A stretch of 64,000 bases of DNA from positions 660,599 to 724,598 of the forward strand of contig NZ_JAHKQN010000013.1 of the NCBI RefSeq assembly GCF_018861125.1. Direction: 5' to 3'. The position numbers were made by a program, and so were the translations under genes. The notes below the pieces were generated by a model. The model worked only from the letters and a program-made list of their open reading frames with translations, made no database searches and had not been told where the DNA came from. Of this stretch, positions 1-32,350 are shown in pieces; position 1 is the stretch's first letter, and each line of letters begins with the position of its first letter. Origin of the DNA: Cellulophaga baltica. Its GTDB lineage: Bacteria > Bacteroidota > Bacteroidia > Flavobacteriales > Flavobacteriaceae.

Positions 1-3000
1 TGGTGTTGCAGTAACAGGATTAATAGTAATTCCTACAATAATATCTTCATCATCAGCATTACAAGTAACCGTATTAACAATACTCACCGTAGGATCAGAT
101 ATTGCTACAAAAGGATCAATTGTAGTTGTTGTGAAATTTGTACAACCCATATCGTCGTAAACAGTAATGGTATAATTTCCACCTGATAAATTTGTTTCAG
201 TGTATGTTGTATTAGCACCATCTTGAACAACTGTTGAGGTTGTCGTATTTTCAAATACATAACGTACATAATTTCCAGAACCACCAGTTGCCAATCCTGT
301 AACATCAATAGTTGCATAATTAGTAGTATTTGCCGTAGTACAATTGTATTGAGTTACGGTTGGTGTTGCTACTGTTAATGCACTTGTTGGTTGCGAGATA
401 GTTTGGGTAATAGTATTAGTACAATCATTACTTCCAGTTACTGTAATAACATATCCAGTACCAGTTGTATTTTCGAGATTTTCAAAAACAGCACTAGTAT
501 TTGTTGCACTAGTAGGTGCAATATTTACTGTAGTACCATCTTTATCAGTAATTTCAAAAGTATAAGGATCAATACCATTATCTGTTACACTTACAGCAAT
601 AGTTCCGTTATTATCACCAAAACAAGTTACATTAGTAAATGCATCAATAGTTGGAGTTGGTAGTAAAACAGCAGGCGCTAAAGTTTTATTAATAGAGAAC
701 GAACATGTACCATCAGTAATTGTAAATGAATATTCACCATCAAGAGTTAAGTTTGTAAAAATTCCATCCGTATTCGGAGTAAGTGGATTTCCACTAGGAT
801 CAGTACCTGTATAGCTATAGGTACCAGAACCACCAGTTTGTGAAATTGTAATTTCACCACCAGGAGTAGCAGTACAATCAATAGTTTTTACAGTAGTTGC
901 TAAAGGAACTATTTCTTCATATAAATCAATAGTATTAGTAGTTGTACCAGTACAACCCCACTGATCTGTAATAACTACTTGATATTGCCCTTCACCTAAA
1001 TCGCTAAAAGTATCGTTAGTTTGAATAGCTCTTAAGTCTACAAAGTTAGAACCATCAAAACGTTGTAGTTGGTAACTGTAGTTAGCACCTTGCCCACCTG
1101 TTTGATTAATCACTTGTAATTCGCCTTTAAAGTTGGTACAATTTTCATTGTTTAATTGAAGATCAGCAGTAATAGGAGTTGGATTAACTAAAGTAATATC
1201 AGTTAATCGTAAAGCACACCCTCTACTATCAATCACCCAAATTTCATAGGTACCTGCAACTAAGTTTTCAAACTTAGGCGTAGCCACATAATTAGAAGCA
1301 TCGTTAGAATCAGGATTAGGTGTTGTACTTACATAGTAAGAATAATCACCCCAGCCACCAGTTACATTGACAATTTCAATAGTTCCATTATCGGTGGGAT
1401 TACAAGTAATATCCGTTACAATAGAAGTACCAGCTGCTAAAGCATTCTCAGGTTCTGCAATGCTAAACGGTTCTTGATTATCACAAGTAGGCACACCATC
1501 TTGGGTAAAAGTTACATAGTATTCACCAGCTATTAAACCAGTAGCAGTAAAATCAGCAGAAGTACCAATAATACTAGTAGTAGTACTATCACTATTAAAT
1601 ACTTCCCAAGAATAAGTACCAGTATAAGTAACATCATTCACATTGAAAGTAGCAGTACCAGTAGCAGAACCTTTACAAATAACATCAGTAGTTACTGGAG
1701 TATCTACTGTAAAAGTATTAGGATCAGTAATATTTATAGATGTGAATAATTCACAATTAGTATCTATATGTCTGACTAAGAAGTTATGAGTACCAACACC
1801 TAAATTAGGGAATATATTAGATGTTTGCCAAGATGCACCATTATCATTACTATATTCAAATTTGGTAGTATCATTATTTGTAGAAGTTACTGAAATAGTT
1901 ACTTCTCCATCATTACCAGGAGTACAAGTTATTGCACTTGTAATACTAGAATCTATTGTTAATAACTCATCAAAAGCATCAATTGTTGCTGTAGCAGTAC
2001 CAATACAACCATTGTCATCGTAAACAGATATTGTATAATTTCCACCATTTCTATCTGTCTCGATATATTCAATATTCGTACCATCTTGAACAATTGTTGA
2101 GGTAGTTGTATTTTCAAATACATAGCGTGTAAATGTACCTGAACCACCACTTACTGTATTTACAGTAATACTAGCATTGTTATCAGTATTCGTATCAGGA
2201 ATACAAGTAAATTGTACAACATCAACTAAAGGATCAATTGATATGCTTATTGCAGTTGGTTCATTAATTATTATTGATGAACTGTCAGTACTACAATTAT
2301 TTGTTGCATCAGCAGTTACTGTTACAATATATCCATCAGTTGTTGTGGTTGGTGCAAGATTAGTAAATGTAGCTGAAGTATTTGTTGTTGTGGTTGGAGC
2401 TATACTTGTTGCTGTACCATCTAAAGATGTAATTTCAAAAGTATATGGACCCGTACCATTATCTAAAGCTGTTACCGTTATAGTTCCATCATCATCACCA
2501 ATACAAGTAATTGGTGTAGAATTTGTTGTATCTATAATAGGTTCAACAGCATCTTCAACATCTATTGTAAATACTCTTGAGCATTCAGGACCAGTAGTAT
2601 CGTTATCATAAACAGTTACTGTATAAGTTTCAACAACTGTTACACTAGCTACAAAAGGGTTCGTAGTTAATGCTGTTCTTGATACTACAGTACCTAACGT
2701 ATTCGTAATTTCATAATCATAATTACCAGAACCATTGATTGCTTCAATTGTAATTTCAGCAGTACCAGGAGTACAATCCATTAATTTTGTAAGCTGAACA
2801 TTAGCTTCTAATACAGGATGTATTATTGCTGTATCCGTTGCAGTACATCCATTACTATCTTTTATTGAAACAGTATAAGTACCATCAGTTAAATTTGTAA
2901 ATAAACCGCCATTATCAAGATATGTTACACCACCATCAATAGAATATAAAATTTCAGTAGCTGTACTTGTTGCATTAATAGTTAATGAATTAGGGTTTGC

Positions 3001-6000
3001 ACAATTATTAATTTCAATACTATCTATTGTAGGGTTAGGAGTTAATGTCATTATAACATCTCCCAAATCCTTAGAGCAACTATATTGATCTTGAATTGTT
3101 ACATTATAACTTCCTGCTGGTGAATTAGCTGGAATTTCTATTGGATTATCAGTAGTTCCTGTTATAGTTAAAAAAGGTAAAGGTCCGGCAACTGTATAAC
3201 TATAATTACCGCCACCACCATTAATATTTTGTATTTCTATAAGTCCTGGTGTAGCACAAGAAATATCTTCAATTTTATTTAAATCTGCAGTTATTTCTTC
3301 TAACTCTTCTAATAATAGATTTTCTGATGCAGATACACAACTATCTACTCCACTATCTCTTTCAGTTACTTCAATAAAATATTCTCCTTCACCTAAACCA
3401 GAAACTGTTACTGATTGTGGAGAAGAAAATGCCACATTACCTCCACTATTAGTTACAGATACAGGTGTACCAGTAGACATATTATATACTTCATATCTAT
3501 ATTCTGTACCAAAAGGAGCTTCATTATCAGTAATAGTATATGTAATACTACCATTAGTCATACCAAAACAAGCTGGTATTGAAGTTGATGTAATTTCTAA
3601 TGGTAACGTAATTAAATCATTTACATTAATATCACTTTGACGAATACATCCGTTAGCATCTCTTACAAAAAATACATATGTTCTTCCAGGTACTAAACCT
3701 GTAAATGTATGAGGATCTGATAATCCTTTAGCAGGTGTTGTCCAAGGATTACTAGGTGTAGTTGCATCAAAGTTAACAGGATCATCTGTATAAGTATATT
3801 GATAAGGAGCTGTACCTTCATTACCTTGTACACTTACTTGTAGTTCATTACAATTGACAATAATAGCTGCAATTGTAATATCCAAATTATCTAATGGATA
3901 TTTAATAATATACCTAGGTAAATCTAATCGACATAATGTATTACCAGAGGCATCTACCGTTCTTATAGAAGGATCTACAGCATCACCTGAAGTTAAAGTA
4001 TATGCTGGAGCATCAAAAACATCAGAAGTTTGCCATGTAGCACCACCATCATGACTAAACTCTAATGTTCCATTTAAAGTTGTAGTATAATTTATAAATG
4101 TAAACCCTGTTGCAGGATCACAATCATCTGTTAAGTTAGATTCAATATCTGTTACTAGTTCATCAGGATTATTAATGGTTACAGGAGTAGTTTGAATAGT
4201 ACAACCACTAGCATCAGTTACATTAATTGTATAATTACCAGGAGATAAATTGAAAAATGTTTTTGTATTATTTATAACATTTGTTGCTGTTTCATCTGAA
4301 GCTCCTCCGTTATCTAAATCAATAATTTCATACGTATATGGAGCAATACCTGAACTTACGTTAATATCAATAGTTCCAGTACCATCATAACATTCAGGAT
4401 CTGTAGGTATTGCAGTATACGTTAATGTTGTTGCAGGATCTACTGTAACTGTATCTGTATATTCACAATGTGGATCTATTGCATTATTATCCCAAACATA
4501 TACATCATAATCTCCAGAATTTAAAGCATCAACTGTATAAGAATTAGAACTAATAAAATCTATACTAGTAACTGTTGTTCCAGTTGTTACAAAAGCATAC
4601 ATCAAATTACCATCTCCACCAGTTGCATTAACAGTGATATTTCCATCATCACATGAACTAACGTGAGTAACATCTATTGTTGCATTTATTGTAGAATTTA
4701 TCACTACCGTTTCTTGTACTGCTTCACAGCCAAAACCATCTTTTACATCAATAGTATATGAACCGCTTGCTAAGCCTGTAAAAGTATACGTTGTTGCTGT
4801 AGAAGTATTTGGAGTTATCCAAGGATTACCATTAATACTAAATTGGAAATTTCCATTACCAGGTATTGAAGTAACATCTACTTGTATTGTACCATCATTT
4901 TCACCAGAATAACATGCAGTTGGTGTAGCAGTAAAAGTTGGTACTTGTGGTACATCAACTGTTATAGGTGCATCAATAGGATCTTCACAATTATTACTAT
5001 CTCTAGCAACCACAATATAATCACCAGCAGTAAGATTAGTAAATACAGTATTATCACCATTAGATATAAAATCATAAGTACCAATAATGTTACCTGAAGC
5101 ATCTTCAAGTTGGTATTCATAAGTTGGTGTACCTCCAGAAGCACTAGCAGTAATAGTTGCACCAGTATTAGAACAAGTAAATTCTGTTGTTTTAATTGCA
5201 CTAGCAATAAGCTCAGTTGGTTCAGTTATATCTTCGGTTAATATAACAGCACATATTGTAGGGTTATCAATATCTCTAACTGTAATTGAATAATTTTGAG
5301 CAGTAAGACCAGTTACCGTTTCAGAAGTTGTGAATGGACCAAAGAAATTTGTCCCATCTAAAGAATATTCATAACCATTACTTCCAAAATTTGAAGCGTT
5401 TATTGTAAATCCACCGTTACTATCTCCAAAACAAGTAACATTTATTGGGTTAGTAATAGAAGCTGTAAATTCTTTTCCAGCTTCGACATTTACAGTAATA
5501 CTAGTTGTACACTCACTACCATAATTTACTTCAATAGTATGGGTACCTGTAGCAATATCATTAAATATATTAGCATCAGTTCCGGTTTGTGGAGTTCCAC
5601 CATCTATTGCATAGGTATAAGAAGCATCAAAAGGAGTAATTGTAATATTACCTGTACCATCACAATTGTAAGTAATAGTATCTTCTAAAGTTGGAACTGT
5701 TGGTAAAGGATCAATAATAACATCAGTTAGTGTAGTTACACAACTAGTTGCATTTGCATCTCTAACTTGGATAGTATAAGTACCATCTGTTAATCCTGTA
5801 AAAATTGTACCCCCAGTAGTTGAAGTAGTCCAAGAACCACCATTAATATTATATTGATAATTACCAGAACCACCAGTTGTAGCGGTTACACTACCTACAG
5901 TAATTTCAGCTTCGCCACTAGGTAAACAAGTATAGTCTCTAGTTTGTATGGCTTCAGCAACAATTTCATTAGGTTCACTTACTGTAATAGTTTTTGTTTC

Positions 6001-9000
6001 AGTACAGCCATCAGCATCTTGAACAAGAATATCATAATCACCAGCAGATAAATTAGAAAAAGTCGCATTAGTATCTAAAGTTCCACCATCAATACTGTAT
6101 GAATATGGTACATTACCACCAGTAATATCAACAGAAATGGTACCATTAGTATCACCAAAACAAGTTACATCAGTTACCGTTTCAGTAATCACTAAAGGAT
6201 CATTTTTAGTAATAGTAATGGTATTAGTAGCTTCACAATAATCAGAAACACCAGCTGCATCTCTCACATATACATCATAATCACCAGTAATAGAGATAGC
6301 AACAGGATTAGTAGTTGAGAAATCTGAATCAGTAACAGTTGTTCCATCAGTAACAATAGCATATACATAATTACCATCACCACCAGTAGTTGTAAAAGTA
6401 ACATCAGTAGTAGTAGCACATGAAGTAATAGCACTAGCATTAGCAGTTACACTTAAACTAGGATTAATAGTTATAGTTTGAGGACCAGCCTCACATCCAA
6501 ATTGATCTTTAACATTGATAATATAATCACCAGAAGCTAAATTATCAAAAGTATACGTTGAAGCGGTAGTAGGATTAGGTGCTTCATAGGCTCCGTTATT
6601 AATACTAAATAATAGGCCACCGTTACCACCAGTAACAGTTACCAAAATTTCAGCATCACTAGCACCTGCATAACAAGAACTAGGAGAAGCTGTAAAAGTT
6701 ATTGCTTCAGGATCTTCAACTGTAATAGGTAAATCAATAGGATCTTCACAATTGCTAGAATCTCTGGCAATTACAATATAATCCCCAGTAGGAAGGTCAA
6801 TAAAAGTTGTATTAGTTCCATTAGATGCAAAATCATAAGAACCAATTATGTTCCCTAAAGTATCTTCAAGTTGATATTCATAAGTAGGTAAACCACCTGT
6901 AGCACTAGCGGTAATAGTTGCACCAGTATTATCACAAGTAAATTCTGTAGTTATTGAAGCACTTGCAAGAACAGCAGTAGGTTCTGTAATATCTCTTATA
7001 ATTTGTGAAATACAAGTTTGTTCATTAACTCTTCTAATATCAATAGTTTGTGTACCTGCACCTAAAATTGCAGGTGTAGTTACTGGAGAAATTGTAGAAG
7101 TATAAGATGTTACCCAATTATCATTTGAATATTCAAAACCTGTTGCAGGATCAAAATTAAAAACTTCAAAAGTTATTGTACCATCAGTATCACCATTACA
7201 AGTAACATTTGTAGATGATATAAAGTTGGTTCTAAATTCTTGATCTTCCTCAACAATAACAGTGGTTTCAACGGATAATGGACAAACTTCTGGAATTTGA
7301 TAAATTTCAATGTCATCTAAAGCAAAATCATTTCCATTATTTCCTACTTTTTCAGAACGAATAATAAATTCTAATTCTGTGTTATTCCCAGGATTTAAAT
7401 CTACACTAAAACTTTCCCATTGTTCTGTTTTTGGTATATCTCCAGTTCTAATTGATTGAACAACTGTACCTGTAGTTGTTGCAATTTCTATAGTTAAATC
7501 TGGATCTAAAATTGTACTTGAACTATTTACAAGATTAAATATGAATAATGATATGTTTATATCTTGATTAGGAATAACATCATTAATTTCTTTAGAATAA
7601 ATTACTTGTCCTGGTGAAGGTGTACCAACATTTATTACTAAATATCTACCATTGGTATCAGTACCATTACTGGTATGATCATCAGGGTTTAACCAAGTAC
7701 CAAAAGGTGCAACTATGCTATTTGTTACAGAATATTCAAAATCATTTATATTTCTATCAGAATCACCAGGAGCATCCGTAGTTTGATCTTCGTAAGTATA
7801 TCCTATAGTATTGTTACTTGATGTTGTTGTACCACTACCAAAATCTTCTACCAATAATTGACTTGGCGTTGGTGGTGTTTGAGACGAATAATTTGTTGTT
7901 ATATTATAAGTACCTGGTGCAATATTGCTAAATATATTAGAGCTTTCATCAGGACTATTTAATACACCATCTAATTCATAAGTATAATCATAAGTGTCAA
8001 TATCTGAATTAACAGTAATGTTTCCTGTACCATCACAATTGTAATCAACATCAGTTGTAATTGTTGGTTCTACGGGAAAATCTTCAACAAAAACATCAAT
8101 AGCAAATTCACACCCTAAGGCATCTTTTACAACTAAGGTGTTGTAATTACCTGGAGGAAGTATCGCTGTGCTAGAAGTACCAAATGTACTACCGCCATCA
8201 AAACTATAAGTATATGGTGATTGTCCACCTATTACGTTTGTAAATCTAACTTCTGCTCCTGCAGGATCACAAGTTACGTCTCTAGAAACACCTGCAGAAG
8301 CAGATAAAGTTTCTGGTTCATCAATAGTATATTCTAATGTTTCTGAACATCCAGAGCTATCTAAAACAGATATATAGTAGGTATCTGGCTCTAAGTTTAA
8401 AAATGTATTATTGTCTTGGTAACTAGCTCCATTGTCAATACTATATTCATATGGAGCAACACCGTTTGATGTATTTATTACAATACTAGCATCTGAACTA
8501 CTATTACATGTTATTGGTGTAGATGCAGTTGCATCTATTGAAATAGTCATGGTACCATTATCTTCTAATGTAACACTGTTAGATGCTATAAAACAGTTAT
8601 TAGCATCAACAACCACAAATTCGTAAATACCATCTTCACCAGCATAATATTCGTCTACATCATCAAAATCTGTATCTCTATAACCAAATTCAAAAATAGG
8701 ATCTGCAGTATATGCTGATGCAGGAATATCATCAATAGATGTGTAGAAATCTGTACCATCTTTACTCCATATTGCATATGAATATTCAGGATCAGGAAAA
8801 CCACCTGTAGCAGTTAATTCTATAGTACCAGCTGTACAACCAATATGTGATAATACGGCTGCAGTAAGTTTAATATCATCAACCTCACCAACTGTAATAT
8901 TTTGTGTGCTTTCACAACCATCTTGTGTTGTTACTACTACAATATAATCATCAGCATTTAAATTGTAAAAAGTATGATCATTACTTGTTTCAGCGGTAAC

Positions 9001-11787
9001 AATGTTTACTCTGGTACCAGTACCATATGAGTTTGTTGTTCCGTCATCAAAACGAAGATCATAAGTATAATTAGCTCTTACATTTAATACTTGAATATTT
9101 ATAGAACCACCTTCATTACAATTTGCTTCGGTTGTTTCTATATCTACCTGAAACTCTCTATCTCTAATACCAATTTCATCACTTGAAAACTCACAAGAAT
9201 TTTCAATTGGGTCTCCATTGCTATCTAATTGACGAATATCAATTTGGTAATTACCTGCATTGGCAATATCAAAACTTGGTCCTTGTCCAGCACTAAATGG
9301 AACCTCAGCACTATCTGTATCTAAATTGTATAATTGAAAGCCATACCCAGAACCCAAATTTGTTACTGTTATATTACCATCAGTATCACAAAAAATATCA
9401 TTTTGAGATGTAATTATTTCCAAATCATTTTTAAAAGCACTGAAATAGAAACGGCTTGAACATCCATCTTCATAATTAATAACTAAACGATATTTACCAG
9501 AACCTGTAAGTGTATATGCATTTCCTGTTTGAATGGTTGAATAACATGAATTACTTTTATTAGGACAAGCAGCATCTGTTGAAGAACAAGAAGCTTCATC
9601 TAATTTTTGCCATTCAATACTATCTGCGTCTGGTATATTTACTTCTAATAGTTCCGTATCATTTGAACCACATAAAAATATTTCTACAGTTGATTCACCA
9701 TCAATGGAACACCTTAAAATTTCACCTTGGATATCATTTGTTAGGTCTGAATCACTATTTTGGTCGTTAAAATAGTCAATAATTGGACTGGTTTGCGTAG
9801 TACCAAATAATTTGACTGTTATAATTTCTTGGAAACCTTTACAAGGATCAGCTACTATTTTGTCAACAATATAGGTTCCCGTTTGATCTACAAGAAAAGT
9901 ACTTAAATCATTATCAGAATTGCCATCATCTAAAACAGTATCTGTGCCTAAATCGATAAGTCCGTTTTCATTTACATCTAAATACCAGATATAATCATCA
10001 AAATTCTCACCTGCTTCTAATAAAACATCATCACCACAAAGCAATACTTCTCTTGAAAAATCACAATCAGATAAATCGTCTAATAAAAAGTTTGTTGCTC
10101 CTGGAGTAACAAAACCACATGAATCAAAATCAGTAACACTAGGATCTTCAGTTATTACGTTATCATTTTCTACACCTTGATACGTTGAATAAGCTACATT
10201 TTCAATTTGATCAGAACATGCATCAATAAAATCAAAACAATTTTCAGCAACCTTTACTTCCATACGAATACTTTCAACAGGCGCACCTTCTGTTATATAT
10301 TCATCAGGTATTGTGAAAATTATAGTTCTTGTTGCTTCATCAAAAGTATAAGTTACACCATCAGGTAGATTACCATCTACGGCTAAACTAGCTTCATTTA
10401 AAGTAACATTTAAGGGTAAAATATCTTTTATTGTATAGTTTGTAGCATCATCATTACCAATATTTTCAAAAGATAATATGTATTTTAAATTATCGCCTAA
10501 ATTTACACCAGCACCTGTTAAGTCCTCTGTTTCAGCTAGATCTGTAACTTTTTTTTCTAAAACTATTTCTGGCTCAATTATTTCAATATTGAAAGAGTTA
10601 AAGAATGGATAATATTGATCTCCACTTGATGTAAACCTAAAGGTAGCTTCAGTTGCATCATTATCAATAATTGAGTTTGCAGTATTATTTAATAGAAATA
10701 TATCAGTATCATAACCTAACGTATTAATACTATTAGGAGTTCTGCCTGTAGTCACAGTCCCATTATAAGATATATTACTATTGAAAAAGTTATTTGTTGG
10801 GTTTGCACCATTATTTACTGTAACAAAAGGATCCGAATTTTTTTCTCTAATTTGAAGTTGATCGCCCGATATGTTGTAATCTCCTTCTAATACAGCAGCA
10901 CCTAAATTTGCATTAACTTGACCTGAAGGAATGGTTAAAAAACCACTATAATTAATATCAACGTTTGGATTTGTACTATTTACTCTAGCAAAACCATCAT
11001 AAGTTGTTATTAATTTACCACTTAAAGTAGGGTTTTCATAAACAATCACAATTGTCCAACCTGCTGCAGCTCCTCCTGAAAGATCACCTAGGGCTGCCCT
11101 TACGTTTGCAATAGTGTATTCACCTGTTGGATCATCTAATGCCGTTAACTGGCTTGTAACGTCTGCATAACAAGCATATGGACTGTTTGTTTTATTATCA
11201 TTATCTGCTGCGGTAAAACCATCATATAAAATTTCATCTGCCGTAATATCAACATAAGAACCACCAGGTACTTTTAATTTTACTTGGTTAAAATCTGTTT
11301 GTCTATTAGTACCTACTGCATCTGATGCAAGTTCACTTGGGTAAGTTGCTGACCAATATAAGGCTGCATATCTTATTTGGTTACAATCTATTTCAGGAAA
11401 ATCTAACGTTGCACTACTTGAACTAAATGTTGATAAATCATTATCAACATCAATATACTGCATATCTTTGCTGTCGTTATAGTTATTAGCACCTCCAGTC
11501 TCATCATCATTATAATCAGATGGTGTTCGTCCTCTAGTTATTATAACAGCTTGATTGTCGTATGGGTCTTCGGGTTCTGTAGTTGTTGTGCCGCCATCAC
11601 GATTAAGAATATTGTTGGCTATAAATATTAAATCACCTTTGATATTGTTCTGATACCTATAATTTTCTCCTGAGTCATATGTTCTAGTAAATGGAGTATA
11701 TTCTTGCCCATAACTGCTATATGTTAAACCTATAATCAATAATAGGAATAAGATAAATGTTGGTTTTTTTGAAAATAAATTTTTCAT
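1..11787 (-). CDS. Giant SprB-repeat surface adhesin, T9SS-associated, 3' end outside window
   Basis: An open frame of 3929 codons without a stop runs from an ATG at 11787 off the left edge, so the C-terminus is not visible. Residues 1-27 form a Sec signal peptide (basic start, Leu/Ile core, SYG before Gln). An extracellular N-terminal domain follows to about 400, then a DUF11-like conserved repeat (about 405-515, start LEKKVTDLAE). From about 790 onward there are some 34 SprB-type modules of 80-95 residues. Each opens with a TCxGDxDGxI-like motif and has a later YxYSIDGG-like strand and a YxVxVxDxxGC strand. A jelly-roll-like domain (about 1305-1500, LVEDFGSG start) interrupts module 6. SprB is the mobile gliding adhesin of Flavobacterium johnsoniae, and such proteins leave the cell by T9SS. 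The type B C-terminal signal is expected but lies outside the window. It has its own promoter at 11864-11931 and a PorP/SprF-like gene just upstream. Adhesion or gliding is an inference. Confidence 0.88.
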   Translation of the reverse strand, partial: MKNLFSKKPTFILFLLLIIGLTYSSYGQEYTPFTRTYDSGENYRYQNNIKGDLIFIANNILNRDGGTTTTEPEDPYDNQAVIITRGRTPSDYNDDETGGANNYNDSKDMQYIDVDNDLSTFSSSSATLDFPEIDCNQIRYAALYWSATYPSELASDAVGTNRQTDFNQVKLKVPGGSYVDITADEILYDGFTAADNDNKTNSPYACYADVTSQLTALDDPTGEYTIANVRAALGDLSGGAAAGWTIVIVYENPTLSGKLITTYDGFARVNSTNPNVDINYSGFLTIPSGQVNANLGAAVLEGDYNISGDQLQIREKNSDPFVTVNNGANPTNNFFNSNISYNGTVTTGRTPNSINTLGYDTDIFLLNNTANSIIDNDATEATFRFTSSGDQYYPFFNSFNIEIIEPEIVLEKKVTDLAETEDLTGAGVNLGDNLKYILSFENIGNDDATNYTIKDILPLNVTLNEASLAVDGNLPDGVTYTFDEATRTIIFTIPDEYITEGAPVESIRMEVKVAENCFDFIDACSDQIENVAYSTYQGVENDNVITEDPSVTDFDSCGFVTPGATNFLLDDLSDCDFSREVLLCGDDVLLEAGENFDDYIWYLDVNENGLIDLGTDTVLDDGNSDNDLSTFLVDQTGTYIVDKIVADPCKGFQEIITVKLFGTTQTSPIIDYFNDQNSDSDLTNDIQGEILRCSIDGESTVEIFLCGSNDTELLEVNIPDADSIEWQKLDEASCSSTDAACPNKSNSCYSTIQTGNAYTLTGSGKYRLVINYEDGCSSRFYFSAFKNDLEIITSQNDIFCDTDGNITVTNLGSGYGFQLYNLDTDSAEVPFSAGQGPSFDIANAGNYQIDIRQLDSNGDPIENSCEFSSDEIGIRDREFQVDIETTEANCNEGGSINIQVLNVRANYTYDLRFDDGTTNSYGTGTRVNIVTAETSNDHTFYNLNADDYIVVVTTQDGCESTQNITVGEVDDIKLTAAVLSHIGCTAGTIELTATGGFPDPEYSYAIWSKDGTDFYTSIDDIPASAYTADPIFEFGYRDTDFDDVDEYYAGEDGIYEFVVVDANNCFIASNSVTLEDNGTMTISIDATASTPITCNSSSDASIVINTSNGVAPYEYSIDNGASYQDNNTFLNLEPDTYYISVLDSSGCSETLEYTIDEPETLSASAGVSRDVTCDPAGAEVRFTNVIGGQSPYTYSFDGGSTFGTSSTAILPPGNYNTLVVKDALGCEFAIDVFVEDFPVEPTITTDVDYNCDGTGNITVNSDIDTYDYTYELDGVLNSPDESSNIFSNIAPGTYNITTNYSSQTPPTPSQLLVEDFGSGTTTSSNNTIGYTYEDQTTDAPGDSDRNINDFEYSVTNSIVAPFGTWLNPDDHTSNGTDTNGRYLVINVGTPSPGQVIYSKEINDVIPNQDINISLFIFNLVNSSSTILDPDLTIEIATTTGTVVQSIRTGDIPKTEQWESFSVDLNPGNNTELEFIIRSEKVGNNGNDFALDDIEIYQIPEVCPLSVETTVIVEEDQEFRTNFISSTNVTCNGDTDGTITFEVFNFDPATGFEYSNDNWVTSYTSTISPVTTPAILGAGTQTIDIRRVNEQTCISQIIRDITEPTAVLASASITTEFTCDNTGATITASATGGLPTYEYQLEDTLGNIIGSYDFASNGTNTTFIDLPTGDYIVIARDSSNCEDPIDLPITVEDPEAITFTASPSSCYAGASDAEILVTVTGGNGGLLFSINNGAYEAPNPTTASTYTFDNLASGDYIINVKDQFGCEAGPQTITINPSLSVTANASAITSCATTTDVTFTTTGGDGNYVYAIVTDGTTVTDSDFSTTNPVAISITGDYDVYVRDAAGVSDYCEATNTITITKNDPLVITETVTDVTCFGDTNGTISVDITGGNVPYSYSIDGGTLDTNATFSNLSAGDYDILVQDADGCTETKTITVSEPNEIVAEAIQTRDYTCLPSGEAEITVGSVTATTGGSGNYQYNINGGSWTTSTTGGTIFTGLTDGTYTIQVRDANATSCVTTLTDVIIDPLPTVPTLEDTITYNCDGTGNITITPFDASYTYAIDGGTPQTGTDANIFNDIATGTHTIEVNYGSECTTSITVNVEAGKEFTASITNPINVTCFGDSNGGFTINASNFGSNGYEYSLDGTNFFGPFTTSETVTGLTAQNYSITVRDIDNPTICAVILTEDITEPTELIASAIKTTEFTCSNTGATITASASGGTPTYEYQLEDASGNIIGTYDFISNGDNTVFTNLTAGDYIVVARDSNNCEDPIDAPITVDVPQVPTFTATPTACYSGENDGTIQVDVTSIPGNGNFQFSINGNPWITPNTSTATTYTFTGLASGSYTIDVKDGFGCEAVQETVVINSTINATIDVTHVSSCDDGNITVNATGGDGNLMYAFVTTGTTVTSIDFISSNSYTVDALNSGDYDVYVWDNNAIDPHCEYTDTVTVDPATTLTYTAIPTDPECYDGTGTIDINVSSGIAPYTYEIIDLDNGGASDETATNVINNTKTFFNLSPGNYTINVTDASGCTIQTTPVTINNPDELVTDIESNLTDDCDPATGFTFINYTTTLNGTLEFSHDGGATWQTSDVFDAPAYTLTSGDAVDPSIRTVDASGNTLCRLDLPRYIIKYPLDNLDITIAAIIVNCNELQVSVQGNEGTAPYQYTYTDDPVNFDATTPSNPWTTPAKGLSDPHTFTGLVPGRTYVFFVRDANGCIRQSDINVNDLITLPLEITSTSIPACFGMTNGSITYTITDNEAPFGTEYRYEVYNMSTGTPVSVTNSGGNVAFSSPQSVTVSGLGEGEYFIEVTERDSGVDSCVSASENLLLEELEEITADLNKIEDISCATPGLIEIQNINGGGGNYSYTVAGPLPFLTITGTTDNPIEIPANSPAGSYNVTIQDQYSCSKDLGDVIMTLTPNPTIDSIEINNCANPNSLTINATSTATEILYSIDGGVTYLDNGGLFTNLTDGTYTVSIKDSNGCTATDTAIIHPVLEANVQLTKLMDCTPGTAEITIEAINGSGNYDYEITNTLGTVVSRTALTTNPFVASVTVVETYTVTVYDNDTTGPECSRVFTIDVEDAVEPIIDTTNSTPITCIGDDDGTITVTALDNGTGPYTFEITSLDGTATSIAPTTTTNTSATFTNLAPTTTTDGYIVTVTADATNNCSTDSSSIIINEPTAISISIDPLVDVVQFTCIPDTNTDNNASITVNTVSGGSGTFTRYVFENTTTSTIVQDGTNIEYIETDRNGGNYTISVYDDNGCIGTATATIDAFDELLTIDSSITSAITCTPGNDGEVTISVTSTNNDTTKFEYSNDNGASWQTSNIFPNLGVGTHNFLVRHIDTNCELFTSINITDPNTFTVDTPVTTDVICKGSATGTATFNVNDVTYTGTYSWEVFNSDSTTTSIIGTSADFTATGLIAGEYYVTFTQDGVPTCDNQEPFSIAEPENALAAGTSIVTDITCNPTDNGTIEIVNVTGGWGDYSYYVSTTPNPDSNDASNYVATPKFENLVAGTYEIWVIDSRGCALRLTDITLVNPTPITADLQLNNENCTNFKGELQVINQTGGQGANYSYQLQRFDGSNFVDLRAIQTNDTFSDLGEGQYQVVITDQWGCTGTTTNTIDLYEEIVPLATTVKTIDCTATPGGEITISQTGGSGTYSYTGTDPSGNPLTPNTDGIFTNLTLDGEYSFTITDGTCSFSINKTLAPAVLLPTPTIDAFTNVTCFGDNNGTIAVSVTDNGIDPYTFEITDKDGTTVNIAPTSATNTSAVFENLENTTGTGYVITVTGSNDCTNTITQTISQPTSALTVATPTVTQYNCTTANTTNYATIDVTGLATGGSGNYVRYVFENTTTSTVVQDGANTTYTETNLSGGNYTITVYDDMGCTNFTTTTIDPFVAISDPTVSIVNTVTCNADDEDIIVGITINPVTATP
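100..2620 (-). repeat. Second seven-module duplication in the adhesin
   Basis: Modules 25-27 (bases about 1920-2620) resemble modules 32-34 (bases about 1-700). Both contain the sequence RYVFENTTTST followed by VVQDG or IVQDG, and a preceding module with a DPYTFEIT or GPYTFEIT strand. The DNA anchor gtattttcaaatacata lies at 245 and 2108, an offset of 1863 bp or 621 codons. In the module count this is again a shift of seven. Confidence 0.6.
4450..7900 (-). repeat. Seven-module higher-order duplication in the adhesin
   Basis: Modules 5-11 and 12-18 of the adhesin match in order: RDVTC/RDYTC, YNCDGTGNIT in both, TEFTC with NTGATITASA in both, then paired SSCYAG/TACYSG modules. The clearest anchor is the DNA for the CEDPID module, gatcttcaca at 6741 and again at 4980, an offset of 1761 bp or 587 codons. 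Proteins are more alike than the DNA, so the duplication is old and in frame. Confidence 0.7.
7290..7875 (-). other. Jelly-roll-like (MAM/CBM-type) domain inserted in adhesin module 6
   Basis: These bases encode about residues 1305-1500 of the giant adhesin. The segment begins near LVEDFGSG and ends near FALDDIEIYQIPE, a pattern typical of beta-sandwich lectin or MAM-like domains in secreted Bacteroidota proteins. The paralogous module 13 (bases about 5450-5680) runs straight from a TIEVNY strand into the next Cys, whereas module 6 has this extra domain between its TNY strand and the next Cys. Ligand binding is an inference. Confidence 0.6.
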
Positions 11788-11863: not shown

Positions 11864-11931
11864 CAAATATGATTTTAAAACACTAGGTTTAGAATTTAAT
11901 GTTGTGGTTTAGTTTGTTTATGTTGTGAAAG
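11864..11931 (-). promoter_or_regulatory. Adhesin promoter with paired ACAACAT sites
   Basis: Read on the minus strand, CTTTCACAACAT (11931-11920) is followed after 14 bp by ACAACATTAAAT (11905-11894), then after exactly 21 bp by TCATATTTG (11872-11864), a near match to the Bacteroidota -7 box TAnnTTTG. No TTTG is present at the -33 position. The start codon is about 70 bp from the predicted transcription start. The same arrangement, with identical spacings, precedes the 752-residue gene at 16884-16951. Direct heptamers 21 bp apart without a -33 box suggest an activator-dependent promoter. The geometry resembles LytTR-type response-regulator sites, but the regulator is unknown. Confidence 0.72.
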
Positions 11932-12056
11932 TCTTTTTATCTATGGTTTCTGTTTTAAAGAACCAAGGCTCATTTTACTTAAATTCAGATTTTGAAAGTT
12001 GCATTTAATCTGTACATAATTTGTAATCAAGTGTATATATTTAGTTTTTGAGCACT
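11932..12056. other. Gene-free stretch upstream of adhesin promoter
   Basis: No open frame, RNA gene or repeat could be recognised between the shared promoter element and the terminator at 12057. Together with 11788-11931 it forms the 333-bp gap before the adhesin gene. Confidence 0.5.
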
Positions 12057-12097
12057 AAAAAAAGCCTATAAATAAGTATTATTTATAGGCTTTTTTT
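12057..12097 (-). terminator. Bidirectional intrinsic terminator after the SprF-SPOR gene
   Basis: A perfect 19-bp stem (12057-12075 with 12079-12097) closes a GTA loop and is flanked by A and T runs, so it can work on either strand. It lies 24 bp after the stop of the SprF-like gene and separates that operon from the adhesin promoter. Confidence 0.88.
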
Positions 12098-12120
12098 AAA
12101 TTGTGTGAGGCTTTATTTTA

Positions 12121-14472
12121 TTAGGTTATTTGACCTGGTGTTACTTTCATAATCCACATTCTTTGATCATATGCATTATTAATTTTTGAGTAATATGATA
12201 TTAATGCATTATTCCAGTCTCCATGTTTTTTTAAGTAAACATATCTGTAATTATTTTCAGGATTTATAAAATAACTAGCATTTAATCCTTGAGAATTTAA
12301 CAGTTTTACAAAGTTGTTAGCGTTTCTTGCACTTGCAAATACATTGGCAATTATATAGTAACCATTACCTATACCTCTCAAATTATAATTTTTTATAACA
12401 GGTTGACTAGATGATGCAACGTTGTCTTTTGTAATAGTATTTGTTTTTAATCTATCTGTATTATATTTTGATGATTTTTCTTTAATTTTAACTGAATTAC
12501 TGGCATAAGCAGTATCTGAATAAGTAGAGTTATCAACATTCATGATCCACATTGCAGCATCATAATTATCATCCATTCTAGATTCGTAAGAACTTAAAGC
12601 ATCTTCCCATGAATCACTACGCTTTAAATACACATACTTTAAACCATTATTTTTATTTTCAAAATAATCAGCTTCAATTCCGTTTTCTTCTAATTCATTA
12701 ATAAAGTTGTTCATGTAGTGCTCATTTTTATACACATTTGCTACTACATAATATCCTTCATTTACACCATCAAGATTTTTAAATTTTCTAGTTTTTACAT
12801 TGCTATTTTTAGCAATTTTAGTAAAAGCATCTACCTTTTTTTCTGGTTGTACTGTATTTTCTCTTGTGTCAATTGATTGCTTATTACTAATAGTTTTCTT
12901 TGGATCTTCTAGAAGATCTTTTACAGTAGTTTTTTCAGTATGAGTAGTATTTGATACTAATTGTGAGTCATTTTGATCATCATAGTTTACACTGTTATAT
13001 ACTGGTTTATTTGTTTTATCTTCATTAGAAGCAGCATTTTTTACAATAGGTTTTTCAGTATCAGAAGTATTTGATACTAATTGTGAGCCATTTTGATCGT
13101 TATAGTTTACGCCGTTATATACTGGTTTATTTGTTTTAACTTCATTAGAAGTAGCATTTTTTACGTTGTTGTTTAATGGATTATTTGACACTAGCTCAGT
13201 ACCATCGTCATCTTTTAAGTTATTTAGTAAATACATTTGTTTAGCACGTTCTTCTAAATCAGGGTTTTCACCATTTGTTTCTCTTCGAACCATTCGCATA
13301 ACCATATCAAAACGTTGTTCTAAATCTCTATTTCTACTAGCTTCAATAGAATCTTGTCTATACATCATCTCTGCAACAATTTCATTGTTTTCAGCTAATG
13401 CATTTTTAAGATTTTCAATTTCAATATCTTTTTCAGTTATAGGTTCAGGCTCTTCAAATAAATCACTATTATCAGCTAACTCTTCTGTATCTTCAAGCAT
13501 TACCCTATCTTCAGTTAAGTTAGGTGTAATAGAATATGCAAATGAGATTTCATGAGTTACACCAAAATTATCGAAACTATTACTTAAGCCTTTTTCCATT
13601 GTATATCCTATAGATATTCTTTTATTTAAGTTAATTCCTAAACCTGCTGCCGCACCATAGTATGAATCATAACCCCCTTGTACCCAACCAAGTTTAGGTA
13701 AATCTAATATTAGACTACCACCAAGAATTATATCATCATCTAAGCTTTCATATTTAGCTCCTGCTTTTCTTACTCTTAATAATGGCATTAATCTACCACC
13801 ATCTAAAATACTATTAGTGCTACTAGCATCAAGTTCATGTGTATATTGTAAATGAGCAGCATATGTTTTATCACCAAATTCCGTTATTGATTCGCTAGTT
13901 TTTAAGTTATAGTCAAATAAATTTTCAGCAAATACACCAAAATCAAATTTGCCGTATGATAGGTTAAAACCTGGTTGAAATGATATTAAATTACTGTCTT
14001 GTAGGCCACTTAATAATGGATCATCAGCATCTACTGTTGTACTTCTACTTTCATCAAAACCACTTCTGTAATAAGAGAAATTGGCACCAAAAGTAAAATT
14101 GCTTTTATCACTCAACTTTAATCCATACGCATAATTTGCAAGTACACCATAGTTGCTAAGTGTACCTAATTGTTGTGAATAAATACTTAAACCTAAACCA
14201 GTCCTATCATTCATACGCCCACTATAACTTAAAAAATAAGTTTGGTTATTATCATCAAACGTTGCTGACTGGTTTCTATGTAAGAGATTTATATAAGACT
14301 TATCTTCCCTTACTGTTGAAAACGTAGGGTTAATTAAAAATCTATTAAACTTCAACAAGTTTTGAGAAGCAACATCGTATGTAATATACGGGTTTGTACT
14401 GTCATCTTGAGCACTCATTTTTGTGAGTGCTAAGATGCATAATAGTAGGTATAGATATTTTGGTTTAAACAT
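12121..14472 (-). CDS. PorP/SprF-like outer-membrane protein with two C-terminal SPOR-like domains
   Basis: This 783-residue protein starts with a signal peptide (about 1-21, MSAQ before the mature part). A PorP/SprF-family region (about 22-320) follows, with the usual INPTF start, repeated GLGLSIYSQQ- and FGANFSYY-type barrel strands, and an SIGYTMEKGL strand. Residues 320-570 are an acidic, coiled-coil and Asn/Lys-rich linker with a 40-residue repeat. Two SPOR-like domains end the protein (about 574-655 and 705-783); both contain a GYYxxANV strand, an NNF helix and KYVYLK/RYVYLK. PorP/SprF proteins work with T9SS in the outer membrane, and F. johnsoniae SprF is needed to export SprB. SPOR domains usually bind glycan strands lacking stem peptides. 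The gene follows the type B sorting protein by 28 bp (one operon) and sits beside the giant adhesin, so it probably serves both. The family call is firm; the role of the SPOR tails is inferred. Confidence 0.85.
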   Translation of the reverse strand: MFKPKYLYLLLCILALTKMSAQDDSTNPYITYDVASQNLLKFNRFLINPTFSTVREDKSYINLLHRNQSATFDDNNQTYFLSYSGRMNDRTGLGLSIYSQQLGTLSNYGVLANYAYGLKLSDKSNFTFGANFSYYRSGFDESRSTTVDADDPLLSGLQDSNLISFQPGFNLSYGKFDFGVFAENLFDYNLKTSESITEFGDKTYAAHLQYTHELDASSTNSILDGGRLMPLLRVRKAGAKYESLDDDIILGGSLILDLPKLGWVQGGYDSYYGAAAGLGINLNKRISIGYTMEKGLSNSFDNFGVTHEISFAYSITPNLTEDRVMLEDTEELADNSDLFEEPEPITEKDIEIENLKNALAENNEIVAEMMYRQDSIEASRNRDLEQRFDMVMRMVRRETNGENPDLEERAKQMYLLNNLKDDDGTELVSNNPLNNNVKNATSNEVKTNKPVYNGVNYNDQNGSQLVSNTSDTEKPIVKNAASNEDKTNKPVYNSVNYDDQNDSQLVSNTTHTEKTTVKDLLEDPKKTISNKQSIDTRENTVQPEKKVDAFTKIAKNSNVKTRKFKNLDGVNEGYYVVANVYKNEHYMNNFINELEENGIEADYFENKNNGLKYVYLKRSDSWEDALSSYESRMDDNYDAAMWIMNVDNSTYSDTAYASNSVKIKEKSSKYNTDRLKTNTITKDNVASSSQPVIKNYNLRGIGNGYYIIANVFASARNANNFVKLLNSQGLNASYFINPENNYRYVYLKKHGDWNNALISYYSKINNAYDQRMWIMKVTPGQIT
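12930..13170 (-). repeat. 120-bp tandem repeat in the SprF-SPOR linker
   Basis: Two near-identical 120-bp (40-codon) units start at about 12946 and 13066 on the plus strand, each carrying agtatttgatactaattg and ctggtttatttgtttta. A decayed third edge is visible on both sides. They encode the NKPVYNxVNYxDQNxSQLV repeat of the periplasmic linker. Confidence 0.8.
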
Positions 14473-14500
14473 TTTGATTAGGTGTGATTTGGGGTTTGGG

Positions 14501-16759
14501 TTATTTTATAACGGTAATAGTCCCCTGTTTTATTATATCTGACCCTTCATTTATTTTATAATAGAATATCATATTCTGTGATGGGAAAGACGTAGAAGAC
14601 TCTGGCCAATTGTTTTGATAATTATTAGTGTTTATTATTACTTGTCCGTTTTCATTATATATAGTAACAGTAATATCTTCTTGGTTTGAGTATGAATTTG
14701 GTATAACCCATAAGTCATTAATTCCATCTCCATTTACTGTTATAACGTTTGGTATTTTAAATGTGTCTTTATAACTAACCGTAATTTCTTTTATAACAGC
14801 ACAATCGTCAATATAAGCAGTTAAAAAGTACGTTCCTTCTTCTGTAAAAGTTGCTGATGTTGAAGCACTTATAATATTATTATCACTATCTCTCCATTGG
14901 TATGCAGTACCACCACTTGCTGTAATAGTCTTGGTACTACCTTCAATAATTACAACGTTTAGTGCATCATCTAAAGTAATTAAAGATTCATCTAATGCCT
15001 CTATTGTAACTTCATTTGATAGTATAGGGCAACCATCTTTAATTAAAACTAATTGGTATACTCCTGTTTCTGTTATAGATAATTCTGTAGTACTTATTCC
15101 TAAATCTGAACCATCTTTGTACCAAGTATATGTTTCGCTACTTAAGTCTGTTGTTGTGCTTATTGTAATAGCTTCAGAAGAATTACATGCAATTAAGCTT
15201 GAAGCCTCAATTTCAACCAATAAGTTGTTTTTTAATACTACATCTAAGCTATTTGAAATAGCGCTAAAGCTTTCAATTGATGCATCAAGAGTATAACTAC
15301 CATTCTCTGAATTATCAGCTAAACTGATGCTTGATCCTGTAGAACCACTGATATCAGTATTATCTTTTTTCCATTGGTATGTTAAATTGTCCATTAAATC
15401 AGTAGTTACATCTGTTTCTGATCCATCTTCTGCAATGGCATATATGTTTGATACACCTAATAAAACCGATGTGTTTATACAATCTTCATATGAATTTGTA
15501 TAATCAATTACTATTTCAAAAGATACTGGTGCAACTACGCTTGTTTTTTCTGAATTTTGACTTGTTGTACATGCACCTGTCTCTGTTAATTCAACATAAT
15601 ATTCACCTTCTTCACTTATTGCTAAAGAACTAGATGTTTCACCTGTTATTGCTATGTCATCTTTGTACCATTGGTATGTTGGTGATGTTGCTGTTGTTGT
15701 AACACTTAATATTTCTGTATTTCCTGGTAGAATTACCATTTCTAATTCATTAACAACAGTAACTGTGAATTCTCCTGTTTTGCTTATTGTTAAAGCTGGT
15801 GTCGTTTCTGTACATACGCCATCACCATCAACTTTTACTGTATAATCACCAGAAAAGTCTGCAGTATTGGTATCTATAGTATAAGCATAAGCTCCTTGTG
15901 TTCTTGCCTCAACTTCTACATCATCTTTATACCAAGTATAATACAAATCAGCTTCAGCAATAGTTGCCTCTAGTGGATCTGCTGTTTCACCTTCACAAAA
16001 AGTTGTAGTAGTTGGTTCATTTATTGTTACACCAAGTGCTGTTCCTGTTTCTACGGTAATCATATTTGAAAGTGTACCTGCTGATCCAGAACATGTTAAT
16101 CCATAATCTATTTCAGCAGTATAACTACCGGCTTCTGAAACTGTTATTGAATAACTAGTTTCAGATAATATTGTTGAACTTCTTCTCCATATATACTGGT
16201 AAGTGTCTGCATCTGGTACATTATCTACTTCTATTACTGCACTATTTCCATCACAAATTGATATGGTACCATCTCCTATTGTTCCACTACCATCTTCGGT
16301 AATGCTTATGGGATTTTTATAATCTATATAATACATTTCAAAAGCATCCGTTTCTGGGCTATATAACTCAGGGTTGGTACTTTTTACTCTTAATTTGTAG
16401 TTATCACCACGTGTAGTTATTGGAATGGCAAATTCTATATCAAAATCTGTAGTACTGTTTTTATCAGTAACTGTAGCTAAGGTAGTTGGTGAATTAAAAT
16501 TACCATCAGCATCAGATAATTCTAGTATAAATGAGTTGTCACTATCAACGCTTGGTGTTGGTGACCACGTAAAATTCACAAAATATTCATTAAATGTTGA
16601 TGATGCACAAATAGCTGTCCAAGGATCGCCACCGCTACCGAAGTTGGGGTTTGCTATTGGTTCTGGTTGGTTTAAAGTTTGACCAACCATACCTATACTT
16701 ATCATTATAAATGACAGTAATAGTAGTGTTTTTTTTGAAAATGTAGTAGGTTTTTTCAT
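14501..16759 (-). CDS. Ig-like repeat surface protein with T9SS type B C-terminal domain
   Basis: This 752-residue protein has a signal peptide (about 1-26, GMVGQ at the cleavage region). Its body is a string of Ig/PKD-like beta domains with YxWYKDxxx strands and paired Cys residues (for example TYQWYKDD and YTWYKDGSD). The last 85 or so residues begin IPNVITVNGDGINDLW and contain a VTIYNENGQVI strand, which marks the CHU_C / gliding motility-associated C-terminal domain. That domain is the type B signal for T9SS export. It is the first gene of an operon with the SprF-like gene 28 bp downstream, and type B cargo is known to need SprF-like partners. Its promoter matches that of the giant adhesin. 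A co-secreted partner or surface adhesin is likely, but no ligand can be read from the sequence. Confidence 0.85.
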   Translation of the reverse strand: MKKPTTFSKKTLLLLSFIMISIGMVGQTLNQPEPIANPNFGSGGDPWTAICASSTFNEYFVNFTWSPTPSVDSDNSFILELSDADGNFNSPTTLATVTDKNSTTDFDIEFAIPITTRGDNYKLRVKSTNPELYSPETDAFEMYYIDYKNPISITEDGSGTIGDGTISICDGNSAVIEVDNVPDADTYQYIWRRSSTILSETSYSITVSEAGSYTAEIDYGLTCSGSAGTLSNMITVETGTALGVTINEPTTTTFCEGETADPLEATIAEADLYYTWYKDDVEVEARTQGAYAYTIDTNTADFSGDYTVKVDGDGVCTETTPALTISKTGEFTVTVVNELEMVILPGNTEILSVTTTATSPTYQWYKDDIAITGETSSSLAISEEGEYYVELTETGACTTSQNSEKTSVVAPVSFEIVIDYTNSYEDCINTSVLLGVSNIYAIAEDGSETDVTTDLMDNLTYQWKKDNTDISGSTGSSISLADNSENGSYTLDASIESFSAISNSLDVVLKNNLLVEIEASSLIACNSSEAITISTTTDLSSETYTWYKDGSDLGISTTELSITETGVYQLVLIKDGCPILSNEVTIEALDESLITLDDALNVVIIEGSTKTITASGGTAYQWRDSDNNIISASTSATFTEEGTYFLTAYIDDCAVIKEITVSYKDTFKIPNVITVNGDGINDLWVIPNSYSNQEDITVTIYNENGQVIINTNNYQNNWPESSTSFPSQNMIFYYKINEGSDIIKQGTITVIK

Positions 16760-16883
16760 TTTGCTTAAGCTTTAGTTTTCATTGGGTTCTTACTAGTATT
16801 AAATACTTAATTACACGTTGTTGCATTTCATCGATTAAAAAACGCATAATGTCCATATCTATCAGAACTACAGTTCTTAATAT

Positions 16884-16951
16884 CAAATATGAAACTTATT
16901 TTAGCCTTTATGCATTTAATGTTGTAGGTCATATTAAATATGTTGTGAAAG
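16884..16951 (-). promoter_or_regulatory. Operon promoter with paired ACAACAT sites (twin of adhesin promoter)
   Basis: On the minus strand CTTTCACAACAT (16951-16940), a 14-bp gap, ACAACATTAAAT (16925-16914), a 21-bp gap and TCATATTTG (16892-16884) repeat the layout found before the giant adhesin at 11864-11931. The spacers differ in sequence but not in length. No TTTG sits at -33. The leader to the ATG at 16759 is about 118 nt and starts near the small palindrome AGAACTACAGTTCT (16864-16877). Confidence 0.72.
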
Positions 16952-31843: not shown

Positions 31844-32350
31844 ATGAAGAAAATAGTTATCGCTTTAGCACTTTTTAGTGTTTTTGCATGCCAAGAAAGT
31901 AAAATCGGATTTGTTGATACTCAAAAAGTAATGAATGACTATCAAGAAAAAATGGATTTAGAAGAAAGCTTAAAAGTAAAAATGGAAGCTTTCGGAAAAA
32001 AGAGAGATAGTATTTCTCAAAGTTTTCAAGCTAAAGCTCAAGCTTTTCAAACGAGAGCTCAAAAAATGGCGCAATCAAAAGCAGAGGAAGAATATGCGCA
32101 ATTGCAACAACAAGGTCAAATAATTGGTCAACAATTGCAACAAGAAGAGCAAAAGTTACAAATGGAAAGTCAGACTGAAATGGATAGCTTAATCAGTAAA
32201 GTAAAAAAAGAGATTAATGCTTACGGTAAATCTAACGGTTACACATATATTTTAGGTGGTGGCGAAGGTGGAAGCGTACTTTATGGTGCTGAAGCTAATG
32301 ATGTTACAGATCCAGTTTTAAAAGTTTTAAACGACGGATATAAAAAATAA
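31844..32350 (+). CDS. OmpH/Skp-family periplasmic chaperone-like lipoprotein
   Basis: This 168-residue protein has a lipoprotein signal, with Cys16 in SVFACQES, and then the OmpH core. IGFVDTQKVMNDYQ is the usual first strand and helix. A long Lys/Gln/Glu coiled coil follows (about 40-125) and the C-terminal strands read GYTYILGGGEGGSVLYG. Skp/OmpH trimers hold unfolded outer-membrane proteins in the periplasm. Here the lipid anchor implies membrane attachment. It is monocistronic, with a clear -7 box and terminator. Confidence 0.9.
   Translation: MKKIVIALALFSVFACQESKIGFVDTQKVMNDYQEKMDLEESLKVKMEAFGKKRDSISQSFQAKAQAFQTRAQKMAQSKAEEEYAQLQQQGQIIGQQLQQEEQKLQMESQTEMDSLISKVKKEINAYGKSNGYTYILGGGEGGSVLYGAEANDVTDPVLKVLNDGYKK

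Follow-up and report, generated by a model that had tools for sequence, protein, structure and literature searches.

In a 64,000-nucleotide stretch of the Cellulophaga baltica genome (the window; NCBI RefSeq assembly GCF_018861125.1, contig NZ_JAHKQN010000013.1, positions 660,599 to 724,598), two promoter elements of the same layout precede the gene of a giant adhesin and an operon encoding a type B immunoglobulin (Ig)-like protein of the type IX secretion system (T9SS) and a PorP/SprF-family protein with a SPOR domain. Sequence comparison makes it very probable that both are activator-dependent promoters, bound by a dimer of one LytTR response regulator. The adhesin and operon switches most likely belong to a circuit that spans many related genera and that, through the same regulator, would also drive the copies of an unnamed small RNA (sRNA). 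To our knowledge, the regulators of giant adhesins and of extracellular polysaccharide in marine flavobacteria are largely unknown. We found no recognisable description of the system in the open-licence PMC literature. The analysis yields candidates for the regulator and its kinase, an exactly spaced operator and the promoters on which the regulator should act. It also describes an sRNA family with a 24-nt core that is letter-identical in 22 of 149 sampled genera; control of surface attachment in these bacteria becomes directly testable.

Two promoters with identical blocks and spacing

Both elements read CTTTCACAACAT-N14-ACAACATTAAAT-N21-TCATATTTG on the minus strand. Element 1 (11931-11864, CTTTCACAACATAAACAAACTAAACCACAACATTAAATTCTAAACCTAGTGTTTTAAAATCATATTTG) sits 76 bp before the giant adhesin open reading frame (ORF), which starts at 11787, and element 2 (16951-16884, CTTTCACAACATATTTAATATGACCTACAACATTAAATGCATAAAGGCTAAAATAAGTTTCATATTTG) precedes the T9SS type B Ig-like gene and then the PorP/SprF-SPOR gene. 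A preliminary description of this DNA gave the same spacers (14 and 21 bp) and the same repeat distance of 21 bp. At the adhesin promoter, the operator (11899..11926) consists of ACAACAT half-sites at 11926-11920 and 11905-11899, separated by N14 and hence 21 bp apart; the proximal half-site carries a conserved TAAAT tail (11894..11898) at the usual place of a -33 element, and the -7 box, CATATTTG, lies at 11864..11871, with transcription expected to start a few bases downstream. The operon promoter has its ACAACAT half-sites at 16946-16940 and, after N14, at 16925-16919 (operator 16919..16946), its conserved TAAAT tail at 16914..16918 and its -7 box, again CATATTTG, at 16884..16891. Both -7 boxes have a C in place of the consensus T and neither element contains TTG before the -7 box, in agreement with the earlier statement that a -33 box is missing.

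The two elements are identical at 44 of 68 bases: the three blocks match completely (33/33), the spacers at 11 of 35 bases. Identity in the flanks is 17/30 upstream and 10/30 downstream (24/60 and 22/60 over longer flanks). A single ACAACAT is not rare in the window (22 observed vs. a mean of 17.8 expected). In a genome scan, bare ACAACAT-N14-ACAACAT matched twice, vs. once for the reversed control, and paired heptamers alone are thus not convincing evidence. With all 24 fixed letters of the repeat blocks, exact matches in the 3.92 Mb genome are confined to these two places, and allowing up to 3 mismatches adds none (reversed control 0). What settles the reality of the element is its conservation in relatives.

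A promoter class in the genus and family

The element was generalised to CACAACAw-N14-ACAACAwTAAwT-N22-YAnnTTTR with up to 3 mismatches. This pattern gave 156 matches in the genus, spread over 18/18 genomes, compared to 5 for the reversed pattern. In relatives' matches before adhesins, sRNAs and small ORFs, the -7 box starts 22 bp past ACAACAwTAAwT. Two forms with this common geometry were separated by core, -7 box and distal repeat, so that these letters of each consensus are partly built in: an adhesin form (43 non-redundant sites) with a -7 box that is mostly cATATTTG and a distal repeat TTTCACAACA, and an sRNA form (135 non-redundant sites) that reads cACcACAa, TTcACAACAaTaaTTT, TAnnTTt and then TGTAATtA. 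The operator consensus is CACmACAw-N14-ACAACAw.

The operon site is kept at the corresponding place well beyond the genus, as a comparison of orthologous upstream regions revealed. With 0 to 3 mismatches, it lies before the type B gene, followed by the SprF-SPOR gene, in 17 further Flavobacteriaceae genera, most of them picked for a known site (G028 was added via its SprF match); four regulator-bearing genera, G096, G097, G120 and G148, lay outside this survey. An adhesin-like ORF, recognised by eye from its N-terminus, comes after SprF-SPOR in most of the 17 genera where enough sequence was fetched; in G175, the ORF after SprF is a different, glycine-rich protein. Within the genus, reading the downstream ORF linked the operon site to the type B gene in 16/18 genomes (G005 because its site is identical to the one in G017); G011 was assigned by position only and G001 is not among the listed matches.

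To follow the adhesin's own promoter, we read 34 loci from the SprF stop to the next gene, in a repeat survey that relaxed how the SprF end and the terminator were recognised, since a stricter pass had missed 18 of the 34. A second site is present in 13 loci and absent from 18, the other 3 being uninformative (G013 and G015) or contrary (G175, taken up below). The second site comes after a terminator (10 loci) or after an interval of 325 bp or more (3 loci): nine genomes of the genus, our own included, have a terminator behind the SprF gene and then the second site, while in four other genera it lies 325 to 2524 bp past the SprF stop, in one of the four after a terminator. The 18 loci without a second site also have no terminator; the start of their next ORF was placed 0 to 326 bp past the stop, though several of these starts are probably internal. 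The adhesin thus usually keeps its link to the promoter class after the transcript has been split, which argues for co-regulation as a trait under selection at this locus. The position of the site in many species likewise supports the joint control of adhesin, type B protein and SprF-SPOR protein that had been predicted from the window.

An sRNA family behind the same promoter

The most numerous genes behind the element are sRNA genes; a glycosyltransferase operon and small ORFs occur too. The principal family, sRNA-A, would be about 90 nt long from its predicted start, with a short 5′ part, a 24-nt core (TTTTCATTTTCATATAGTGTTCTC) and then an intrinsic terminator. We scanned for the core in a family sample of 149 genomes, one per genus. 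At up to 3 mismatches it was found at 67 places in 24 genomes, 56 of the 67 with zero mismatches, and at least one exact copy is present in 22 of the 149 genera (reversed control, 1 match); several of the places with 1-3 mismatches were taken by match alone rather than by reading the loci. In G130 and G184, the matches (3 mismatches) look coding and are without a site; they were dismissed as chance. Among the best 80 of 119 core-containing stretches, the genera are Maribacter, Muricauda and relatives, Zobellia, Arenibacter, Robiginitalea, Eudoraea, Cellulophaga and others, and the record titles name Flavobacteriaceae, apart from a few metagenome-assembled genomes labelled only Bacteroidia or Bacteroidetes.

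GTAAAA directly follows the core in 141/177 copies, and a hairpin of at least 6 bp stands behind it in 176/177, its stem varying in sequence yet still pairing. In an alignment of 30 sequences, compensatory changes affect 9 of the 11 consensus pairs of the terminator stem; the invariance of the 24 nt in this alignment is partly a matter of choice, since the copies were found by the core. When copies were retrieved by the core alone, 125 of 145 proved to have the paired site at exact N14/N22 spacing, vs. 0/725 shuffled upstream sequences. No Rfam family reached the gathering score in a search of 15 sRNA loci and the window, and a lax threshold applied to two short stretches gave only weak matches far under the cut-off, none of them named FopS (an sRNA compared below).

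The core is unpaired in the consensus fold, though only partly so in single-sequence folds (mean unpaired probability of 0.56), and contains UUUUCAU twice, complementary to AUGAAAA starts. Among 32 selected window genes, the start region of the adhesin ranks second in predicted core duplex energy (-17.4 kcal/mol) and the type B gene seventh. The lowest energy (-18.6 kcal/mol) belongs to the start region of a 168-aa ORF at 31844-32350, a possible sRNA target.

Two other arrangements were seen. One genome of the set (L120, G007:C7:68000-77000) carries five sRNA-A genes in tandem, about 226 bp apart (sites 5744, 5971, 6197, 6422 and 6651), each with its own paired site and terminator-like hairpin. 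A variant RNA gene, CCCAAATCTTA followed by core-like sequence, lies behind the regulator described below in L191, L192, L198, L199, L203, L206 and L207; by eye, in L191 and others, it merges motifs of both sRNA families (for sRNA-B, see below).

A candidate LytTR regulator

A search for LytTR domains in 12 genomes pointed to a single response regulator. In G028, G035, G066 and G072 it lies some 210 bp ahead of a same-strand core; in G000 it precedes the variant RNA gene. Its full form (L118:597-1364) has a REC domain at residues 7-117 (E 1.1e-20) and a LytTR domain at 165-245 (E 7.6e-18). Orthologues at 80-94% identity exist in exactly the genera with an exact core, 22/149 including our own, and orthologues at 57-76% in four more genera that lack the core (G117, G070, G136 and G100). 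At E <= 1e-60 the candidate is found in 22/22 core genera and 4 others; two decoys, other LytTR regulators of our own genome, are found at the same threshold in 8/22 and 3 others, and in 11/22 and 10 others, respectively. The promoter pattern is distributed in the same manner: the 22 genera with the regulator at 80% identity or more have 176 sites (4-11 each), the four with it at 57-76% have 14 (7, 5, 1 and 1) and the remaining 123 have 9, vs. 15 for the reversed control. Matches in G026, G034, G040 and G051, genomes outside the regulator-bearing set, were rejected as chance-like.

The regulator gene is also a frequent neighbour of the sRNA. An exact core lies within 420 bp behind it in 10 of the 25 regulator loci read, and the regulator signature occurs 262-615 bp upstream of the core in 31/119 named stretches. 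Elsewhere the regulator is followed by a diverged RNA gene that has a paired site, for example in G096 and G143 and in the diverged genomes G117 and G136; at some loci nothing recognisable stands behind the regulator gene. In our own genome, the gene after the regulator's RNA gene encodes a TPR protein with HisKA_2 and HATPase domains, likely the regulator's kinase.

Published LytTR sites consist of two repeats of 9-11 nt with a gap of 11-13 nt (PMC4847170) or of 9-bp repeats with a gap of mostly 12 bp (PMC6193735). Taken as 9-mers (ACAACAwnn), the repeats described here have a 12 bp gap and a 21 bp period ahead of the -7 box, within the LytTR operator rule. The LytTR-type geometry noted from the window therefore matches published repeat sizes, and with one LytTR regulator both syntenic and co-distributed with the sites, we regard the LytTR reading of the promoter elements as well supported at the level of comparative genomics.

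Model and alternatives

In the mechanism we propose, a LytTR dimer would occupy both CACAACAw direct repeats, which lie two helical turns from each other, on the same face of the double helix. The proximal repeat, centred about 44 bp upstream of the start expected from the -7 box, would abut the place of the missing -33 box, and the dimer would recruit RNA polymerase to the -7 box. The outcome is expected to be activation rather than repression, because the -33 box is missing, the -7 box is weak and the distance to it is fixed; a requirement for activation at these promoters is plausible. The neighbouring kinase would switch the regulator on by phosphorylation, adhesin, extracellular polysaccharide and sRNAs would be co-expressed for surface attachment, and the sRNAs would act post-transcriptionally via their conserved core. 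A more far-reaching version, possible although we doubt it, makes one LytTR two-component system the attachment switch of a whole section of the Flavobacteriaceae: it would directly drive the giant T9SS adhesin and the exopolysaccharide-type operon, and in parallel the near-identical sRNAs would pair via UUUUCAU with the AUGAAAA starts of other exported proteins, clearing the secretion route for the adhesin.

The same promoter class, real and conserved, might be bound by another regulator, for instance an AraC-type protein or a different LytTR protein. AraC-type regulators typically bind direct repeats about 21 bp apart that overlap the -35 region, so their geometry would fit, and the own genome has 14 LytTR matches to choose from. 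It is one particular LytTR regulator, however, that often lies directly upstream of the site-bearing RNA genes and whose presence at 80% identity or more matches that of the core (22/22 genera vs. 0/127), while the two decoy LytTR proteins are distributed differently; we consider a different regulator unlikely. An alternative sigma factor could also be imagined, with the boxes as its -35 and -10 instead of operator repeats, since the -33 box is absent and the arrangement rigid. A two-box sigma site does not accommodate a pair of similar heptamers spaced at 21 bp, of which the proximal lies over 25 bp from the -7 box, and the -7 box still resembles the standard YAnnTTTR, making this idea very improbable. 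Lastly, the window copies are close together and have long words in common, as would be expected of a recent local duplication or of a functionless relic of a repeat element. We ruled out recent duplication of the two elements, as their spacers and flanks differ; the arrangement recurs at equivalent positions within the genus and across 17 other genera, with varying spacers, as well as before unrelated genes, and an adhesin separated from the operon nearly always has its own copy of the site. The chance that the shared blocks are a duplication or relic is negligible, and the earlier view that selection acts on the boxes is upheld.

Binding by the candidate LytTR regulator thus remains our preferred explanation, and several points weigh against it. 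The link between regulator and site consists of synteny and co-distribution. The 80% identity cut was set after the data had been seen (80% and then 76% being the neighbouring values), and at 57% identity or more the core is held by 22 of 26 regulator genera. The co-occurrence does not amount to 22 independent events, because the carrier genera probably form one section of the family. Fifteen of the 25 regulator loci have no exact core within 420 bp, and the RNA gene behind the regulator in our own genome has a diverged core with 5 mismatches. The decoys are two of the other 13 LytTR matches, with no AraC- or OmpR-type protein among them; CiaR, the streptococcal regulator compared below, is OmpR-type. 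Twenty of the 145 sRNA copies depart from the strict geometry (12 with other spacing, 8 with no site). Since LytTR sites have no common consensus (PMC4847170), the heptamer itself proves nothing. In G175, SprF is followed by a terminator, but the best second site has 4 mismatches, beyond the limit of 3. As to the proposed action of the sRNA, direct pairing of the core with leaders of this promoter class found no support and was rejected (60 leaders, mean z -0.52, 5/60 below -2).

Genes of the window locus and other members of the class

The giant adhesin ORF (1..11787, minus strand) encodes at least 3929 aa and continues past the window edge; the family scan, which covered its first 1000 aa, found a DUF11-type repeat. 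Upstream of its promoter, an intrinsic terminator (12057..12097, minus strand, hairpin of -16.3 kcal/mol) separates it from the gene of the 783-aa PorP/SprF-family protein with a C-terminal SPOR domain (12121..14472, minus strand). The first gene of that operon encodes the 752-aa T9SS type B (CHU_C) Ig-like protein (14501..16759, minus strand). A comparison with SprB-type gliding adhesin loci found SprF and CHU_C domains in the neighbours of the adhesin, the C-terminus of which lies beyond the window.

A relaxed scan of the own genome gave 16 places, vs. 4 for the reversed control, and we count 11 of the 16 as credible. They comprise the two window promoters and the sites before a 597-aa CHU_C protein (C18:157809), three sRNA-A genes with an exact core (C26:419466, C35:250030 and C35:250871), the variant RNA gene with the diverged core behind the regulator (C35:103974), two sRNA-B genes in tandem (C33:523067 and 523350), a small ORF pair (C35:244226) and the start of an operon whose first gene is histidine kinase-like by eye (C35:235287). 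The other five (C26:452, C5:40754, C18:17084, C34:116907 and C35:6121) are without explanation. In another species of the genus, a site-bearing operon encodes a protein with HATPase, receiver and weak Hpt matches, a receiver protein, a HEAT-repeat protein, a family 2 glycosyltransferase, a sulfatase-type protein and a YaiO barrel, and looks like an extracellular polysaccharide system.

Two small ORFs recur behind this promoter class. One, of 32 aa (MLYDTYGEEYLxFLxxLNEILSxNxLxELDxx; L119:4320-4418 in the own genome), is conserved in four other genera (L389, L390, L391 and L392) and is placed after the glycosyltransferase operon in the genus; the other, of 35 aa (METQISNLPTEDEVQVYRNDFYSGLVLLLRKIFTL in L401), has relatives in L069, L098 and L112. 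An sRNA-B-like family (L117/L387, the own C33:523067 and 523350, and L394, L395, L396 and L403) also lies behind the promoter. It repeats GTGTTGxxCCCAAATC-like and CTTAACC-like motifs, CCCAAAT recurs in mRNA leaders of the set, and the family could sponge an RNA-binding protein.

Comparison with known systems

Parts of the circuit resemble systems described elsewhere. Rfp18 of Flavobacterium psychrophilum is likewise a Flavobacteriaceae sRNA and has a predicted adhesin among its targets; it differs in being described with a strong structure, the third stem-loop of which pairs with targets (PMC9723704). The terms LytTR, direct repeat and ACAACA are absent from the main text of that paper, and the portions of PMC5395568 and PMC7440613 that were consulted hold nothing on this promoter/sRNA system. 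Like sRNA-A, FopS of the Bacteroidaceae is a multicopy sRNA of Bacteroidota that combines a conserved 5′ portion, single-stranded, with a terminator hairpin. Its promoters, however, are of the canonical sigma-ABfr kind, with at most an unknown regulator, and FopS has been deposited in Rfam (PMC11697453). Our sRNA promoters have the paired-repeat form, and our sRNA loci have no Rfam family at the gathering score.

The csRNAs of streptococci offer a parallel in logic: a single response regulator, CiaR, acts at a direct-repeat operator to control intergenic, terminator-ended sRNAs and protein genes too (PMC3091779). The csRNAs number two to six per genome and 40 types, and the CiaR operator is TTTAAG-N5-TTTAAG (PMC3091779). 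Here, in a different phylum, one 24-nt core is exact in 22 genera, and the operator is CACmACAw-N14-ACAACAw.

In the AgrA-RNAIII system of Staphylococcus aureus, a LytTR regulator activates a regulatory RNA and protein genes (PMC4227749). AgrA binds two direct repeats upstream of the RNA promoter and also activates protein genes directly, an arrangement that we predict here as well. The agr system has one large RNA, and the proximal repeat of its P2 and P3 promoters lies near -60 (PMC4227749). In our case an sRNA of about 90 nt is present in several copies, and the proximal repeat would be centred near -44, as judged from the -7 box. The circuit proposed here further differs from agr in its neighbouring kinase, of the TPR/HisKA_2 type, and in its hosts, the Flavobacteriaceae.

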